A stretch of DNA of 44,002 nucleotides. Origin: Chloroflexota bacterium. GTDB lineage: Bacteria > Chloroflexota > Dehalococcoidia > Lucifugimonadales > UBA826. Numbering within the stretch: position 1 is the stretch's first letter; the number at the start of each line of letters is the position of its first letter. The position numbers and the translations under genes are program-made. Where the stretch lies: the NCBI GenBank assembly GCA_002722155.1, contig PBKS01000009.1:66748-110749 (forward strand). Reading direction: 5' to 3'. Under the pieces are notes generated by a model that saw nothing but the letters and a program-made list of their open reading frames with translations, had not been told where the DNA came from and made no database searches. Shown in pieces: positions 39,501 to 44,002 of this stretch.

Positions 39501-40481
39501 CTACTTTGCTGCCTCCGGATTTAGACAAGCCGGCATCGGTTTTCCTTTTAAGTATGAAATGATGTTGTCAGCTGACATTAATCCCATCCGACGAAGAGTG
39601 GCCGCACTAGCGCTGGCAATATGAGGTGTGACTATGACATTCTCCATATGAACCAAAGGGTCATCCGGTAATATTGGTTCAGGCAATGTAACATCCAAGG
39701 CCGCCCCTGCTATTTCTCCTGCTGCTAAAGATTCTCTCAAAGCGTCCGGATCGACCGTTCCTCCTCTCGATGTATTTATCAAAAAGGCGTCATTATTCAT
39801 CTTTTTAATTTCTTCTCTTCCAATTAAGCCTTGAGTTTCAGGTCCAAGAGGCACATGGATAGAAACATAATCAGACGAGGATAAAAGTCCATCTAAATCG
39901 GCAGTCCACTGGACCCCATACATATCTTCAATATCTGGTTTTCGTGTTCGGGAATGATAGAGGATGTTCATATCAAAGGCTTTTGCCCGTTTAGCAACCG
40001 CCGTACCAATCAAACCCAACCCAATTAGACCTAACGTCTTACCATAAACATCTGTACCCAAATATGGAGTTTGATCAAAGATTTTCCATTCACCGGCTAT
40101 TACTTTTCTATTAGAACGTGTTACCTGACGGGCCAAAGAAAGTATCAACCCCATCGTAAAATCAGCACACGATTCATGTAATATCCCAGGTGTATTACCG
40201 ACAATAACCCCATTCCTTGTCGCTGAAGCCAGGTCAATGTTATCAATTCCTATTGCCCTAGTAGAGACCACTTTCAGACGACCAGCAGCTGAAAAAACCT
40301 CGTCATCCATCATGTCGTTGGACTCGATCATGAATCCATCACATTCTTTAACCTTCTGAAGCAAGAGAGCCTTCGGAGGAGGTGTAGGCTCCTGCCATAC
40401 CTCTACTTCAAAATTTTCTTCCAACTTGGTAATAGCATCTGGCACTATAATTCTGGTAACAAATACTTTTTGCTCTGCCAT
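39501..40481 (-). CDS. D-2-hydroxyacid dehydrogenase, glyoxylate reductase-like
   Basis: A 326-residue NAD(P)-dependent enzyme. GLGLIG (154-159) binds the cofactor; Arg239 (NTSRG), Glu268 (LPEP) and His287 (TPHIAS) are the catalytic residues. The loop after the second strand reads YHSRTRK, favouring NADPH. It is closer to glyoxylate/hydroxypyruvate reductases than the gene at 32320 is. Strong AAGGAG before the ATG. It diverges from the MFS gene at 40646 across a structured region and is followed on its strand by the lipoprotein gene. Confidence 0.93.
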   Translation of the reverse strand: MAEQKVFVTRIIVPDAITKLEENFEVEVWQEPTPPPKALLLQKVKECDGFMIESNDMMDDEVFSAAGRLKVVSTRAIGIDNIDLASATRNGVIVGNTPGILHESCADFTMGLILSLARQVTRSNRKVIAGEWKIFDQTPYLGTDVYGKTLGLIGLGLIGTAVAKRAKAFDMNILYHSRTRKPDIEDMYGVQWTADLDGLLSSSDYVSIHVPLGPETQGLIGREEIKKMNNDAFLINTSRGGTVDPDALRESLAAGEIAGAALDVTLPEPILPDDPLVHMENVIVTPHIASASAATLRRMGLMSADNIISYLKGKPMPACLNPEAAK

Positions 40482-40519
40482 TTATAACTCTCCTTGTAAA
40501 TCACACTCTCGGGCCAAAA

Positions 40520-40547
40520 AGTATACACCTCCACATCAAACACTAAA
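40520..40547 (-). promoter_or_regulatory. Candidate promoter of the hydroxyacid dehydrogenase gene
   Basis: On the minus strand TTTAGT (40542-40547) and TATACT (40520-40525) are 16 bp apart, about 40 bp before the ATG. The -10 is good, the -35 weak. The outer repeat arm at 40552 begins just upstream. Confidence 0.3.
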
Positions 40548-40551
40548 CTGA

Positions 40552-40640
40552 GTTAGTCTTTTTACCCTTGCGCTAAAGGGAACAGTACATCACAATTTTA
40601 TTGATGTGTGAGCAATTTCGTATAAACCAAAAAGACTAAC
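40552..40640 (+). promoter_or_regulatory. Three-hairpin structured region before the MFS gene
   Basis: A 12-bp perfect outer stem (GTTAGTCTTTTT at 40552-40563 with AAAAAGACTAAC at 40629-40640) encloses CCCTT/AAGGG (40565-40569, 40576-40580) and ACATCA/TGATGT (40587-40592, 40602-40607). As RNA this would form a three-way junction ending 5 nt before the ATG at 40646. It could be a leader RNA or a set of DNA operator repeats. Confidence 0.55.
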
Positions 40641-40645
40641 CGTTA

Positions 40646-41860
40646 ATGAGAGATTGTTCACAAAGTGATGCCAGATATAGATGGGTGATGTTGGCCGGGG
40701 TTTGGTTAGCATACTTCTCATTCGGAGTTGTACAGGGTGGTATCCCACCTTTAATCAGTCCAGTTAGTGCAGACCTTGGTTTGAGTCGATCCACAATGGG
40801 TACAGTTCTGGGTGCTTGGCCGTTAATCTATATTTTAACGGCAATACCAGCCGGGGCCCTGTTGGATAGATTTAGTCTCAGATTCACAATTATGACTGGA
40901 GTATTGTTTATTGGCATATCGGGATTACTCAGAGCCCTAGCAGTCGATTACAAAACCATACTTTTTGCCGTAATGGTATTTGGGATAGGGGGACCATTTA
41001 TTTCTATTGGTGCCCCAAAATTAATCAGCACATGGTTTCCTGAATCTGATCGAGGCCGCGCGATGGGCATTTATCTGACTGCCCCCGCCATAGGCAGGAT
41101 ACTGGTCCTATCTGCTACCAATAGTTTACTAATGCCATTGTTTAACAATAGTTGGCGATTAGCCCTACTGACCCTGTCTGGAGTAGCCTTTGCCACTTCA
41201 CTGATATGGATTCTGATCGCTAGAGATCTAAAAACAAACAACTCTGAATCAGGCGAAAAAAAAGACCTTTTATCCAGTATGAAAACATTTCCTGATCTAG
41301 TACGAATCAGAGAGGTGAGATTGATTCTCATAATTGTACTCGGAATGTTTTTATTCAATCATGCCACCAATAACTGGCTGCCTGAAATTTTAATTGAAAA
41401 AGACATGGGCTCATCAAAGGCAGGTTTACTAGCCGCTATTCCAGTTGCTACCGGTGCAATCGGATCAGTAATTATCCCCCAGATAGCAAAGCCACAGTCG
41501 CACAGGAGGATTATGTTTTCTTTGTTCTCTGTCGCGGCAGCATCGACGATTTGCTTAATTTATTTTGATAATTCCTTCCTTGTGGGAACATTAATTCTGC
41601 TTGGAATTTCTTCCAGGGGGGTCATGCCAATAATAATGCTTACCCTGATATCTTTGGTGGGCAGCGAAAAAACAGGTGCCGCAGGCGGATTGTATTTTAC
41701 TGCCGGAGAAGTAGGGGGTGTAATGGGTCCTATACTATTAGGGGTCTCCGCGGATCTTTTTAGTGGATTTACACCAGGGCTCATCTTTCTGTCTGGTTTA
41801 TGTATCGTACTTTCATTTGGATCTACTATTATCAAAGAGAAAAAACCTACACCATACTGA
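40646..41860 (+). CDS. MFS transporter
   Basis: A 404-residue carrier with about 12 helices. Motif A reads GALLDRFSLRFTI and the fourth helix has STWFPESDRGRAMGIYL, as in the nitrate/OFA-like MFS groups. The substrate is unknown. No ribosome binding site precedes the ATG; the region directly upstream is the structured region at 40552-40640. The stop codon directly abuts the stop codon of the convergent selenoprotein candidate at 41861, so the two genes share no space. Confidence 0.87.
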   Translation: MRDCSQSDARYRWVMLAGVWLAYFSFGVVQGGIPPLISPVSADLGLSRSTMGTVLGAWPLIYILTAIPAGALLDRFSLRFTIMTGVLFIGISGLLRALAVDYKTILFAVMVFGIGGPFISIGAPKLISTWFPESDRGRAMGIYLTAPAIGRILVLSATNSLLMPLFNNSWRLALLTLSGVAFATSLIWILIARDLKTNNSESGEKKDLLSSMKTFPDLVRIREVRLILIIVLGMFLFNHATNNWLPEILIEKDMGSSKAGLLAAIPVATGAIGSVIIPQIAKPQSHRRIMFSLFSVAAASTICLIYFDNSFLVGTLILLGISSRGVMPIIMLTLISLVGSEKTGAAGGLYFTAGEVGGVMGPILLGVSADLFSGFTPGLIFLSGLCIVLSFGSTIIKEKKPTPY

Positions 41861-42346
41861 TCAATTCTCAGGCAATAGCGAATTAATTAAAGAATATTCC
41901 GGTACCCCGTTTGTTCGATATTGTGTAGCACCATACTGATCGAACATTATGAAAGTGGGTACTAAATTTGCCTCATATTCTACATACAAAAGTTTCCCGA
42001 CTTCGCTTTGCACTTCCAATTTTACAAAGGTCAACTTTTGACTTAATCGTTCCTCTAACCTGTCAACGGCAGGTTTCATAGTTAAACAACCAATTCAAAG
42101 ATCAGAATATAAATACAACAAGACAGGGCTTCCAGAATCACGTATTGAGTTCCAATGCTCAATCCCATTTAATTCATTGGAAGCTGTCGTGAGAGAACTG
42201 CGCAACAAAGCCACGGCGACCAAAAGGATTAAGGCAGAAAATAAAGCAACCTTTAAAGAAAAGGTACGATAGAGCAGGAAGAAGGATACCGCAATAACAA
42301 CACCTGAAACGAATAAATAAGAATACTGATTTATATATCCGAACAT
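41861..42346 (-). CDS. Candidate selenoprotein: membrane-anchored thioredoxin-like protein with UxxC
   Basis: Normal translation gives two pieces, 83 residues (42346-42095) and a later ATG frame (42079-41861), but both are in the same frame and only one TGA (42095-42097) separates them. Read through TGA as selenocysteine, the product has 161 residues: two membrane helices (about 10-27 and 31-51), then PVLLYLYSD, Sec84-Ile-Gly-Cys87, KPAVDRLEERL and LVPTFIMFD with the cis-Pro at 130. That is the order of a thioredoxin fold, with Sec in place of the first Cys of CxxC. A hairpin lies 26 nt after TGA. A nonsense mutation in a CxxC gene is the alternative. The start is an ATG without a good ribosome binding site, 11 nt after a terminator T-run. 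Confidence 0.78.
42057..42075 (-). promoter_or_regulatory. Candidate bacterial SECIS hairpin
   Basis: On the minus-strand transcript AACCUG pairs with CAGGUU around a 7-nt loop CCGUUGA; a further C-G pair would leave loop CGUU with a G among its first two bases. The loop begins 26 nt after the UGA, inside the 16-37 nt range known for bacterial SECIS elements. Confidence 0.6.
42095..42097 (-). other. In-frame TGA, proposed selenocysteine codon
   Basis: The only stop in a 162-codon frame. It falls exactly on the first position of a thioredoxin CxxC motif (TGA-Ile-Gly-Cys). Confidence 0.72.
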
Positions 42347-42357
42347 GTAATTTTCAC

Positions 42358-42388
42358 AAAAAAAATGGGCCGCCTATGGCGACCCATT
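42358..42388 (-). terminator. Rho-independent terminator after the zinc-ribbon gene
   Basis: On the minus strand an 11-bp stem (AATGGGTCGCC with GGCGGCCCATT, one U-G pair) with a 3-nt loop is followed by eight T (plus-strand A-run 42358-42365). It lies 26 bp after the stop of the zinc-ribbon gene and ends 11 nt before the start of the selenoprotein candidate. Confidence 0.9.
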
Positions 42389-42414
42389 CAATTGATTCGT
42401 TCAAATTCACCAAA

Positions 42415-42606
42415 TTAGGCAACGGCCATGTCATGCCCGCAACACATTGGTGATTTGATCTTTCCACAACCATTAGTGCACTCTGCTACACCAACGGTTG
42501 TACCGTCATCTTTCTCAATATTTACGTGACTTAGTTCTGTTCCACACTTGCCACACGTAATTGGGTGTACTTCCATTCCACAATCACCACAACTATATTT
42601 AGCCAT
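42415..42606 (-). CDS. Small zinc-ribbon protein
   Basis: A 63-residue protein with CGDCG (Cys6, Cys9), CGKCG (Cys18, Cys21), then CTNGC (Cys43, Cys47) and PMCCGHDM (Cys55, Cys56, His58). The first four Cys form a zinc ribbon and the later group could hold a second metal. It resembles desulforedoxin/rubrerythrin-type zinc ribbons but I do not name a family. The ATG at 42606 has a strong AAGGAG 7 nt upstream; a longer frame begins at 42648 without such a signal. It has a consensus promoter (42676-42704) and a strong terminator (42358-42388), so it is a one-gene unit. Confidence 0.8.
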   Translation of the reverse strand: MAKYSCGDCGMEVHPITCGKCGTELSHVNIEKDDGTTVGVAECTNGCGKIKSPMCCGHDMAVA

Positions 42607-42675
42607 TATGCTCTCCTTAATTCCATTCACCTTCATTTGTTTAACCATTCCATCTGACCAACTCAGATTCTAAAA

Positions 42676-42704
42676 AGTCTATCTCTCACTAAAAACACTG
42701 TCAA
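42676..42704 (-). promoter_or_regulatory. Sigma-70-type promoter of the zinc-ribbon gene
   Basis: On the minus strand a perfect TTGACA (42699-42704) is followed after exactly 17 bp by TAGACT (42676-42681), 70 bp before the ATG. It is the clearest promoter in the window. Confidence 0.75.
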
Positions 42705-42831
42705 TGAATCCTAAGTAAAATCAACCTATTGAATAGATCTACTTAACAACGTATAGTTTCGATCCTACGAAATATCATTACTCAAACGATATATCTATGC
42801 CTAAGATACGGAATTATTTAAGGAGAATGAC

Positions 42832-43755
42832 ATGGCAGACAAACCTTTGAGAGTAAGTTATGGAGAGTACACTTATGAGAGTGTCCCGGACTGGGCTCCT
42901 CTACCGGAAGGTTGGGAATGGAACCATGTCGTTGGGGTTACTGTAGACAGCCAAGACAGAATTTATGCCTACAATAGAAGTGACCATCCAATGATAGTGC
43001 TTAACCAGGATGGAGATATTTTAAATACTTGGGGTGCAGACACTTTCAAAAGAGCCCATCATGTTGAAGTCGGGCCCGATGATTCAATATGGACAACTGA
43101 CAATACTGACCACACTGTTAGAAAATGGACCTCTGACGGTAAAGAATTAATGGTCATAGGGACTCCTGATAAACCAGCACCACCTCAAAGTGGAGAGCCG
43201 TTTAATCAACCTACCGATGTCGCTTTTGGTTTGGATGGATCTATCTATATCGCTGATGGATACGGCAACTCCAGGATTCATCATTTCACACCACAAGGCA
43301 AGTTAATTAGATCTTGGGGGGAAAGGGGCACTGGACCGGGCCAATTTATGATTCCACACGGCGTAACTGTGGACCCAACTGGCTTAGTCTATGTTTGCGA
43401 CAGAGAAAACAGCAGGATTCAGATTTTCACCCCAGATGGCCAATATGTTACACACTGGAAGGGAGTACACAGGCCAAACCAAATAGTTCTCGGAAAAGAT
43501 GGAAGCATGTACGTGACTGAACTTGGATTCAAGACCGGCATGGCATCTGGTAGTGAAGAACCTAATGTAACCACTCACAATTCTGGTTTGAAAATAATGT
43601 CCAAAACCGGCCAATGGCTTGGAGGCTGGGGCGCTAGCACACACACACATGGAGATCTAATCGCAGCTCATGCTGTTGGAATAGATTCACAAGGAAGCCT
43701 TTATATCGGTGAAACTCTAGAAGGAGCAAGACTCCAAAAATTTGTTAGAGTTTAA
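42832..43755 (+). CDS. NHL-repeat beta-propeller protein
   Basis: A 307-residue protein made of NHL-type repeats: GVTVDSQDRIYAYNRSDHP, VAFGLDGSIYIADGYGNSRI, GVTVDPTGLVYVCDRENSRI and VGIDSQGSLYIGE mark successive blades of a six-bladed propeller. The HxxD-type residues and WGERGTGPGQF are like those of the peptidylglycine amidating lyase/PAL-like family, but activity is not clear. There is no signal peptide. AAGGAG 7 nt before the ATG. It stands alone between the zinc-ribbon gene (divergent) and the convergent MFS. Confidence 0.88.
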   Translation: MADKPLRVSYGEYTYESVPDWAPLPEGWEWNHVVGVTVDSQDRIYAYNRSDHPMIVLNQDGDILNTWGADTFKRAHHVEVGPDDSIWTTDNTDHTVRKWTSDGKELMVIGTPDKPAPPQSGEPFNQPTDVAFGLDGSIYIADGYGNSRIHHFTPQGKLIRSWGERGTGPGQFMIPHGVTVDPTGLVYVCDRENSRIQIFTPDGQYVTHWKGVHRPNQIVLGKDGSMYVTELGFKTGMASGSEEPNVTTHNSGLKIMSKTGQWLGGWGASTHTHGDLIAAHAVGIDSQGSLYIGETLEGARLQKFVRV

Positions 43756-43756
43756 G

Positions 43757-44002
43757 TTAATCAGCCCTTCGATCTTTGGGATTCTCTTCTCTTGTCGGAG
43801 GGCTAGCTAAAACAAAGCACAAGAACGAAAGAAACAAAAAAACCAAGATTATTTTAAAAGCCAAATCATAGCTCCCGCGGCTATCGTAAACGGCACCTGC
43901 CAGCAATGGTCCCACAATACCAGGGATAACAACTCCCTGCCTAATTAGCCCATTTAACGTCCCAAAATTCTTCATTCCAAAAAGTTCTGTCACGGCCAAC
44001 GG
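43757..44002 (-). CDS. MFS transporter, C-terminal part only
   Basis: The frame is open to the last base of the window, so the N-terminus lies outside. The visible 81 residues start PLAVTELFGMKNFGTLNG and include IPGIVGPLLAGAVYDSRGSYDLAF and two final helices with a charged tail, the C-terminal end of an OFA/MCT-like carrier closely like the genes at 14762 and 30807. It converges on the NHL gene with 1 bp between stops. Confidence 0.85.
   Translation of the reverse strand, partial: PLAVTELFGMKNFGTLNGLIRQGVVIPGIVGPLLAGAVYDSRGSYDLAFKIILVFLFLSFLCFVLASPPTREENPKDRRAD

Follow-up and report, generated by a model that had tools for sequence, protein, structure and literature searches.

The minus strand of the window, by which we mean the whole stretch of 44,002 nucleotides analysed here, carries a small perfect hairpin at 42075..42057, a short distance behind an in-frame UGA at 42097..42095. 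An earlier note on this DNA had taken the hairpin for a bacterial SECIS element, and the question raised by the locus is whether it encodes a selenoprotein whose mRNA contains the signal for its own recoding, or whether the UGA simply ends a reading frame. We conclude, with little room left for doubt, that the hairpin is the apical part of the bacterial SECIS of a membrane-anchored, UxxC thioredoxin-like selenoprotein; its position, its covariation, its coupling to UGA and not to Cys, and the complete selenocysteine machinery of the genome all agree with the note's reading. In the mechanism that we envisage, SelB carrying Sec-tRNA(Sec) would bind the apical hairpin on the mRNA, the upstream UGA would be decoded as selenocysteine and not as a stop, and the product would be a thioredoxin-like protein of 161 residues, anchored in the membrane and presumably redox-active, with U-I-G-C as its active site.

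The gene and its in-frame UGA

The gene comes from a marine bacterium of the SAR202 cluster (Chloroflexota, Dehalococcoidia) and occupies 42346..41861 of the minus strand, from an ATG at 42346 to a terminal TGA at 41863..41861. A mechanical list of ORFs splits it at the UGA into 42346..42095 and 42079..41861, the second with an ATG of its own. The UGA is nevertheless in frame both with the ORF that ends there and with the one that follows, which places the hairpin inside the coding sequence, as had been claimed. Reading through gives a product of 161 residues with the motif U84-I-G-C87, in which the proposed selenocysteine is residue 84 and the resolving Cys87 is encoded by a TGT at 42088..42086 that is invariant in the 15-row alignment of the family. 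The Pfam thioredoxin domain (PF00085) matches residues 63–148 (41903..42160) with 33.4 bits (cut-off 23.5), a match that extends across the UGA. In an AlphaFold2 model built on the 15-row alignment (mean pLDDT 88.4), the N-terminal part forms two long hydrophobic helices (residues 9–28 and 31–52; 42191..42322), after which strands and helices succeed one another in the order typical of thioredoxins; residue 84 comes just before helix 85–101, where the active-site helix begins. Foldseek searches against the PDB returned thioredoxins and the C-terminal domain of DsbD (best E 4.6e-6), and a sequence profile matched 122 distinct PDB sequences at E ≤0.001, of which most among the 60 listed are thioredoxins. 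From their sequence, the two N-terminal helices look like a membrane hairpin and probably serve as an anchor. An invariant Arg27 and a nearly invariant Lys32 lie near the turn between the helices, which by the positive-inside rule would place the thioredoxin domain on the outside.

The gene neighbourhood gave no functional lead: genes for an NHL-repeat protein and a 2-hydroxyacid dehydrogenase recur inside the family, and the neighbours further away are unrelated. Just upstream of the selenoprotein gene, at 42415-42612 of the minus strand, lies a gene for a small Cys-rich protein (65 aa from an ATG in the 42609 region) with zinc-ribbon-like matches that are weak and below cut-off; behind it come a G+C-rich repeat that resembles a terminator and a T run.

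Within the family, the gene was found in 15 of the 16 genomes searched, each time with exactly one internal TGA. A query with the single protein confirmed no related loci among genome contigs or viral contigs, and a query with the alignment yielded 18 named loci; the named relatives come mostly from the SAR202 cluster, Dehalococcoidia and other Chloroflexota, with one Bacillota and one Verrucomicrobia record in addition. At the level of the order, profile matches at E ≤1e-8 came from 161 of 250 genomes, the strongest full-length ones mostly having one TGA and others none. The DNA around the site was read in 70 of these 161 genomes (the 15 of the family, 15 more with loci and 40 further ones), the matches left unread including short ones resembling ordinary thioredoxins, full-length stop-free homologues in the family f27 and short-frame TGA matches (in genomes G142 and G106). 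Of the distinct sequences thus obtained, 53 have TGA as codon 84 and 22 have TGC or TGT, with a TGY three codons later; in the alignment, the UGA takes the place of the first Cys in CxxC. Downstream of the UGA, dN is lower than dS in nine of ten pairs, these being the pairs with a computable dS. In a tree of the 75 proteins, seven Sec–Cys changes are needed and the starred branches force at least six, in a topology whose deep branches are weak and in which several long branches meet. The sequences thus suggest repeated exchange of Sec and Cys in this thioredoxin family, with a hairpin that would come and go with the UGA. Surveys call selenoproteins from Sec/Cys pairs of this kind (PMC1088965, PMC2398784). 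Pairs of the UGA thioredoxin-like gene arranged in tandem, with a UGA in both copies, were also seen, in two genomes of the SAR202 order and in one Bacillota record (L085:456-1110, L086:456-1107 and L051:2670-3189).

The hairpin in the window and among relatives

Read as RNA, the hairpin consists of AACCUG (42075..42070), a loop CCGUUGA (42069..42063) and CAGGUU (42062..42057), that is, the perfect 6-bp stem that the earlier note had described, around a seven-base loop whose third base is a G (42067), near the 5′ side as stated. The figure of 26 nt after the TGA given there applies to the first loop base, whereas the stem begins at nucleotide 20, leaving a gap of 19 nt from UGA to stem and of 25 nt from UGA to loop. 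With an inner C–G pair, formed across a C–A mismatch, the loop could shrink to a GUU triloop (42067..42065), which would lie 27 nt from the UGA. The published bSECIS model (PMC13188914) allows 16–37 nt between UGA and apical loop, an upper stem of 4–16 bp and a loop of 3–9 nt, and expects a G within the first two loop positions and a minimum free energy of −7.5 kcal/mol or lower. The window hairpin resembles it in lying in coding sequence downstream of an in-frame UGA, in having a small loop with a G followed by a U, in its stem of 6 bp and loop of 7 nt, and in its distance, which with either loop form is inside the range, as had been proposed. It differs in that the G is third in the 7-nt loop of the minimum-energy fold, being first only if the inner C–G pair closes the triloop, and in that the hairpin by itself reaches only −6.2 kcal/mol; if the inner pair and the flanks are counted, it comes nearer to both limits. 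SelB may see either loop form, and the relatives L082, L084, L085, L051 and L100 have a textbook GUN triloop on 8 bp.

Folding of the window sequence gives a divided answer to the comparison with shuffled sequence that the note had called for. The 61 nt from the UGA (42037..42097) fold at −15.0 kcal/mol (z −2.44, with 4 of 200 shuffles as good), which supports it, but much of this energy is due to a longer lower stem, and the 45 nt from the UGA to just past the hairpin fold at −7.4 kcal/mol (z −0.71, 52 of 200 shuffles as good), which does not. The lower stem, which includes the UGA, was considered as a part of the SECIS; it is strong in the window, occurs in some near relatives too, and is not claimed here because it is not general in the family. 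Against synonymous recodings of its own peptide the window hairpin gives p ~0.085, the peptide alone predicting 4.3 of the six pairs. Taken singly, then, the window sequence indicates only weakly that the hairpin is more than chance, and it is not significant there; a scan of 40000-44002 against Rfam with E up to 1 also gave no match. Since single-sequence folding is weak, the case for the hairpin rests on the comparison with relatives.

For that comparison, 91 rows were reduced to 75 distinct sequences (53 with UGA and 22 with Cys) by removing duplicates, judged on the 45 nt that follow the codon, and sequences with an N in the first 48 nt, and the ungapped alignment was scored at eight possible pairs. 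Pairing in the UGA members is 80.9%, against a shuffled mean of 71.0, and falls to 19–41% when the partner is slid by 1–3 columns. Covariation in homologues, which the note had also asked for, is clear: seven of the eight pairs have changed on both sides among UGA members, in 61 cells against a shuffled mean of 20.2, with none of 500 shuffles as high, and in the Cys members no pairing measure departs from chance. The two inner pairs are limited to roughly half of the UGA members, and the six outer pairs form the core. In the loop, G31 is nearly invariant and T32 invariant among UGA members, the T saying little because it is invariant in the Cys members too. RNAalifold predicted no structure for all 53 UGA members together; for 22 of them it returned the 6-bp stem with both-side changes at four of six pairs, a result that is biased because these members were picked as well-folding and is therefore not part of our main evidence. 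Our own implementation of the published bSECIS limits is a poor classifier here, finding some fitting hairpin in 47 of the 53 UGA and 14 of the 22 Cys members (19 and 2, respectively, at −7.5 kcal/mol or lower).

Since a conserved peptide can by itself bias pairing, each peptide was also held fixed while its codons were drawn according to local usage. With this control, UGA members pair at 5.40 of six positions where 3.96 are expected, and Cys members at 3.09 where 3.02 are expected (Mann–Whitney p 1e-9 between the two sets, with relatedness ignored). When relatedness was limited by taking one sequence per group, the 22 UGA groups had 124 of 132 stem positions paired against 92.9 expected (sd 4.0), a value reached in none of 20,000 simulations, which never rose above 108, and the five Cys groups had 17 of 30 against 17.2. 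The same preference can be seen in a single codon: where an Arg is encoded in the 3′ arm, UGA members use AGG in 35 of 39 cases, whereas AGG accounts for 40 of 180 among the Arg codons nearby. Two Cys homologues with the same KPAVDRLE peptide as the window, L050 and L048, use CGA for this Arg and break the stem at three and one of the six pairs, respectively.

The earlier note had named UGA homologues lacking the hairpin as evidence against its reading. Most UGA members keep the stem, but 8 of the 53 pair at four or fewer of the six positions, and seven of these have another hairpin. In L089, L090 and L093 other hairpins fit, whose loops have a G at or near their start. L091, L092, L094 and L099, all from one genus (f27/g54), have another hairpin instead, displaced by about 7 nt downstream; from a reading of the sequences and a joint fold, it has the stem CGUCC/GGACG and a 10-nt loop starting with GU, 31 nt from the UGA, with one pair preserved although both of its bases change. 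In L099 one pair is broken, and its genome shows no tRNA-Sec. The eighth, L072 (L072:465-512), is unexplained: it forms four of the six stem pairs, comes from a genome with tRNA-Sec and showed no model-fitting hairpin in the scan. Apart from these 8 of 53, covariation maintains the structure in homologues with UGA but not in those with Cys, as expected of a bacterial SECIS. In the tree, the four genes with the shifted hairpin group together with support, within a clade rich in Cys members, and we tentatively raise the possibility, which we regard as rather doubtful, that they regained Sec together with a SECIS that evolved anew at another position; several losses of Sec would also explain the pattern. 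If there was such a regain, the genus would hold a natural record of a SECIS arising inside coding sequence.

Selenocysteine machinery in the genome

The genome carries a tRNA-Sec (64.2 bits, over cut-off; called as tRNA-SeC with anticodon tca by Aragorn) together with SelA (539.8 bits, cut-off 267.9), SelB (331.9 bits, cut-off 242.25) and SelD (389.9 bits, cut-off 125). A check of 71 genomes located tRNA-Sec in 42 of the 50 with a UGA gene and in 14 of the 20 with a Cys gene, and because of the latter its presence alone is not discriminating; the eight UGA genomes in which it was not found are 55–92% complete, and G007, in which the search for the family gene was negative, gave no tRNA-Sec either. 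SelD of this genome is probably a selenoprotein as well, since its gene has one in-frame TGA of its own (L122:1300-2700, contig C25). The stretch after that UGA can form an ACCUG/CAGGU or a GUU-triloop hairpin; as an internal comparator it is ambiguous, a 23-nt piece giving the GUU-triloop hairpin at −8.0 kcal/mol and the minimum-energy fold of 60 nt preferring other pairs. On another contig of the same genome (C21), a second, ordinary thioredoxin gene with the motif WCQPC (L001:1134-1597) ends ~94 nt upstream of the tRNA-Sec gene. Counted from coordinates, 19 genomes have a thioredoxin-like match on the strand of the tRNA-Sec gene and 37–173 nt upstream of it, and the linkage of selC with a thioredoxin gene is thus conserved.

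Rival readings and relation to known selenoproteins

One alternative to a SECIS is that the UGA is a true stop, which separates two short genes (42346..42095 and 42079..41861) or marks a decaying pseudogene, with an incidental hairpin behind it. The ORF list, with its second ATG, and the weak folding of the single sequence are what one would then expect. Such a reading is very improbable, however, given that PF00085 spans the UGA, that the same single TGA is present in 15 of 15 family homologues and aligned elsewhere with the codon of an active-site Cys, that the sequence after the UGA is under constraint, and that the hairpin is retained beyond the needs of the peptide. This last point also decides against the idea, to which we give a comparably slim chance, that the hairpin reflects nothing but conservation of KPAVDRLE and similar peptides and that Sec is inserted via another structure nearby. 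The peptide does account for a good part of the pairs in the window, and the four UGA genes of one genus do use another hairpin, but the synonymous-codon control removes the effect of the peptide, and L050 and L048 show that an identical peptide can be encoded with a broken stem. Finally, a reassigned UGA could encode one of the ordinary amino acids, for instance Trp or Gly, in this genome. Nothing was found that speaks for this specifically, an in-frame UGA alone being compatible with it, whereas the gene itself terminates in TGA, the aligned residue is Cys in 22 distinct homologues and never Trp or Gly, and tRNA-Sec, SelA, SelB and SelD are present; we consider it less probable still than the other two.

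Thioredoxins (PF00085) with a UxxC motif are tabulated in PMC13188914, and Trx-like 1 and Trx-like 3, two of the GOS groups, are described in PMC2398784. The window protein shares with the UxxC selenoproteins described there the thioredoxin fold, PF00085, the UxxC motif, the existence of Cys homologues and a marine origin, and differs from them by the added N-terminal pair of hydrophobic helices. A match to Trx-like 3 (cd02950, 212 Sec sequences) is plausible on a comparison by description only. Canonical thioredoxin (TIGR01068, NCBIfam) is matched by 15 of 15 family members, in keeping with the fold matches, but the window protein (P0001) scores 33.8 bits, below the curated equivalog cut-off of 96.8; it also has U for the first Cys and the membrane anchor. 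The NCBIfam model seleno_TsoB weakly matches 8 of 15 family members (best E 5.5e-5), and TsoB differs in being a rhodanese/DsbD fusion-like protein. SaoT and HUIPC-motif models, named in PMC13188914, were absent from the 12 NCBIfam families matched at E ≤0.01.

In a full-text literature search, with subscription journals mostly outside its reach, no paper joined SAR202 with ‘selenoprotein’, although SAR202 and ‘selenocysteine’ do co-occur. With the SECIS reading of the hairpin, SAR202 very probably joins the organisms that make a UxxC thioredoxin-like selenoprotein, as a further example of a known mechanism. The family amounts to a natural experiment, in which one protein is made with either Sec or Cys and the hairpin is kept in the former case and lost in the latter, so that the requirements of a SECIS can be read from sequence at a fixed peptide.
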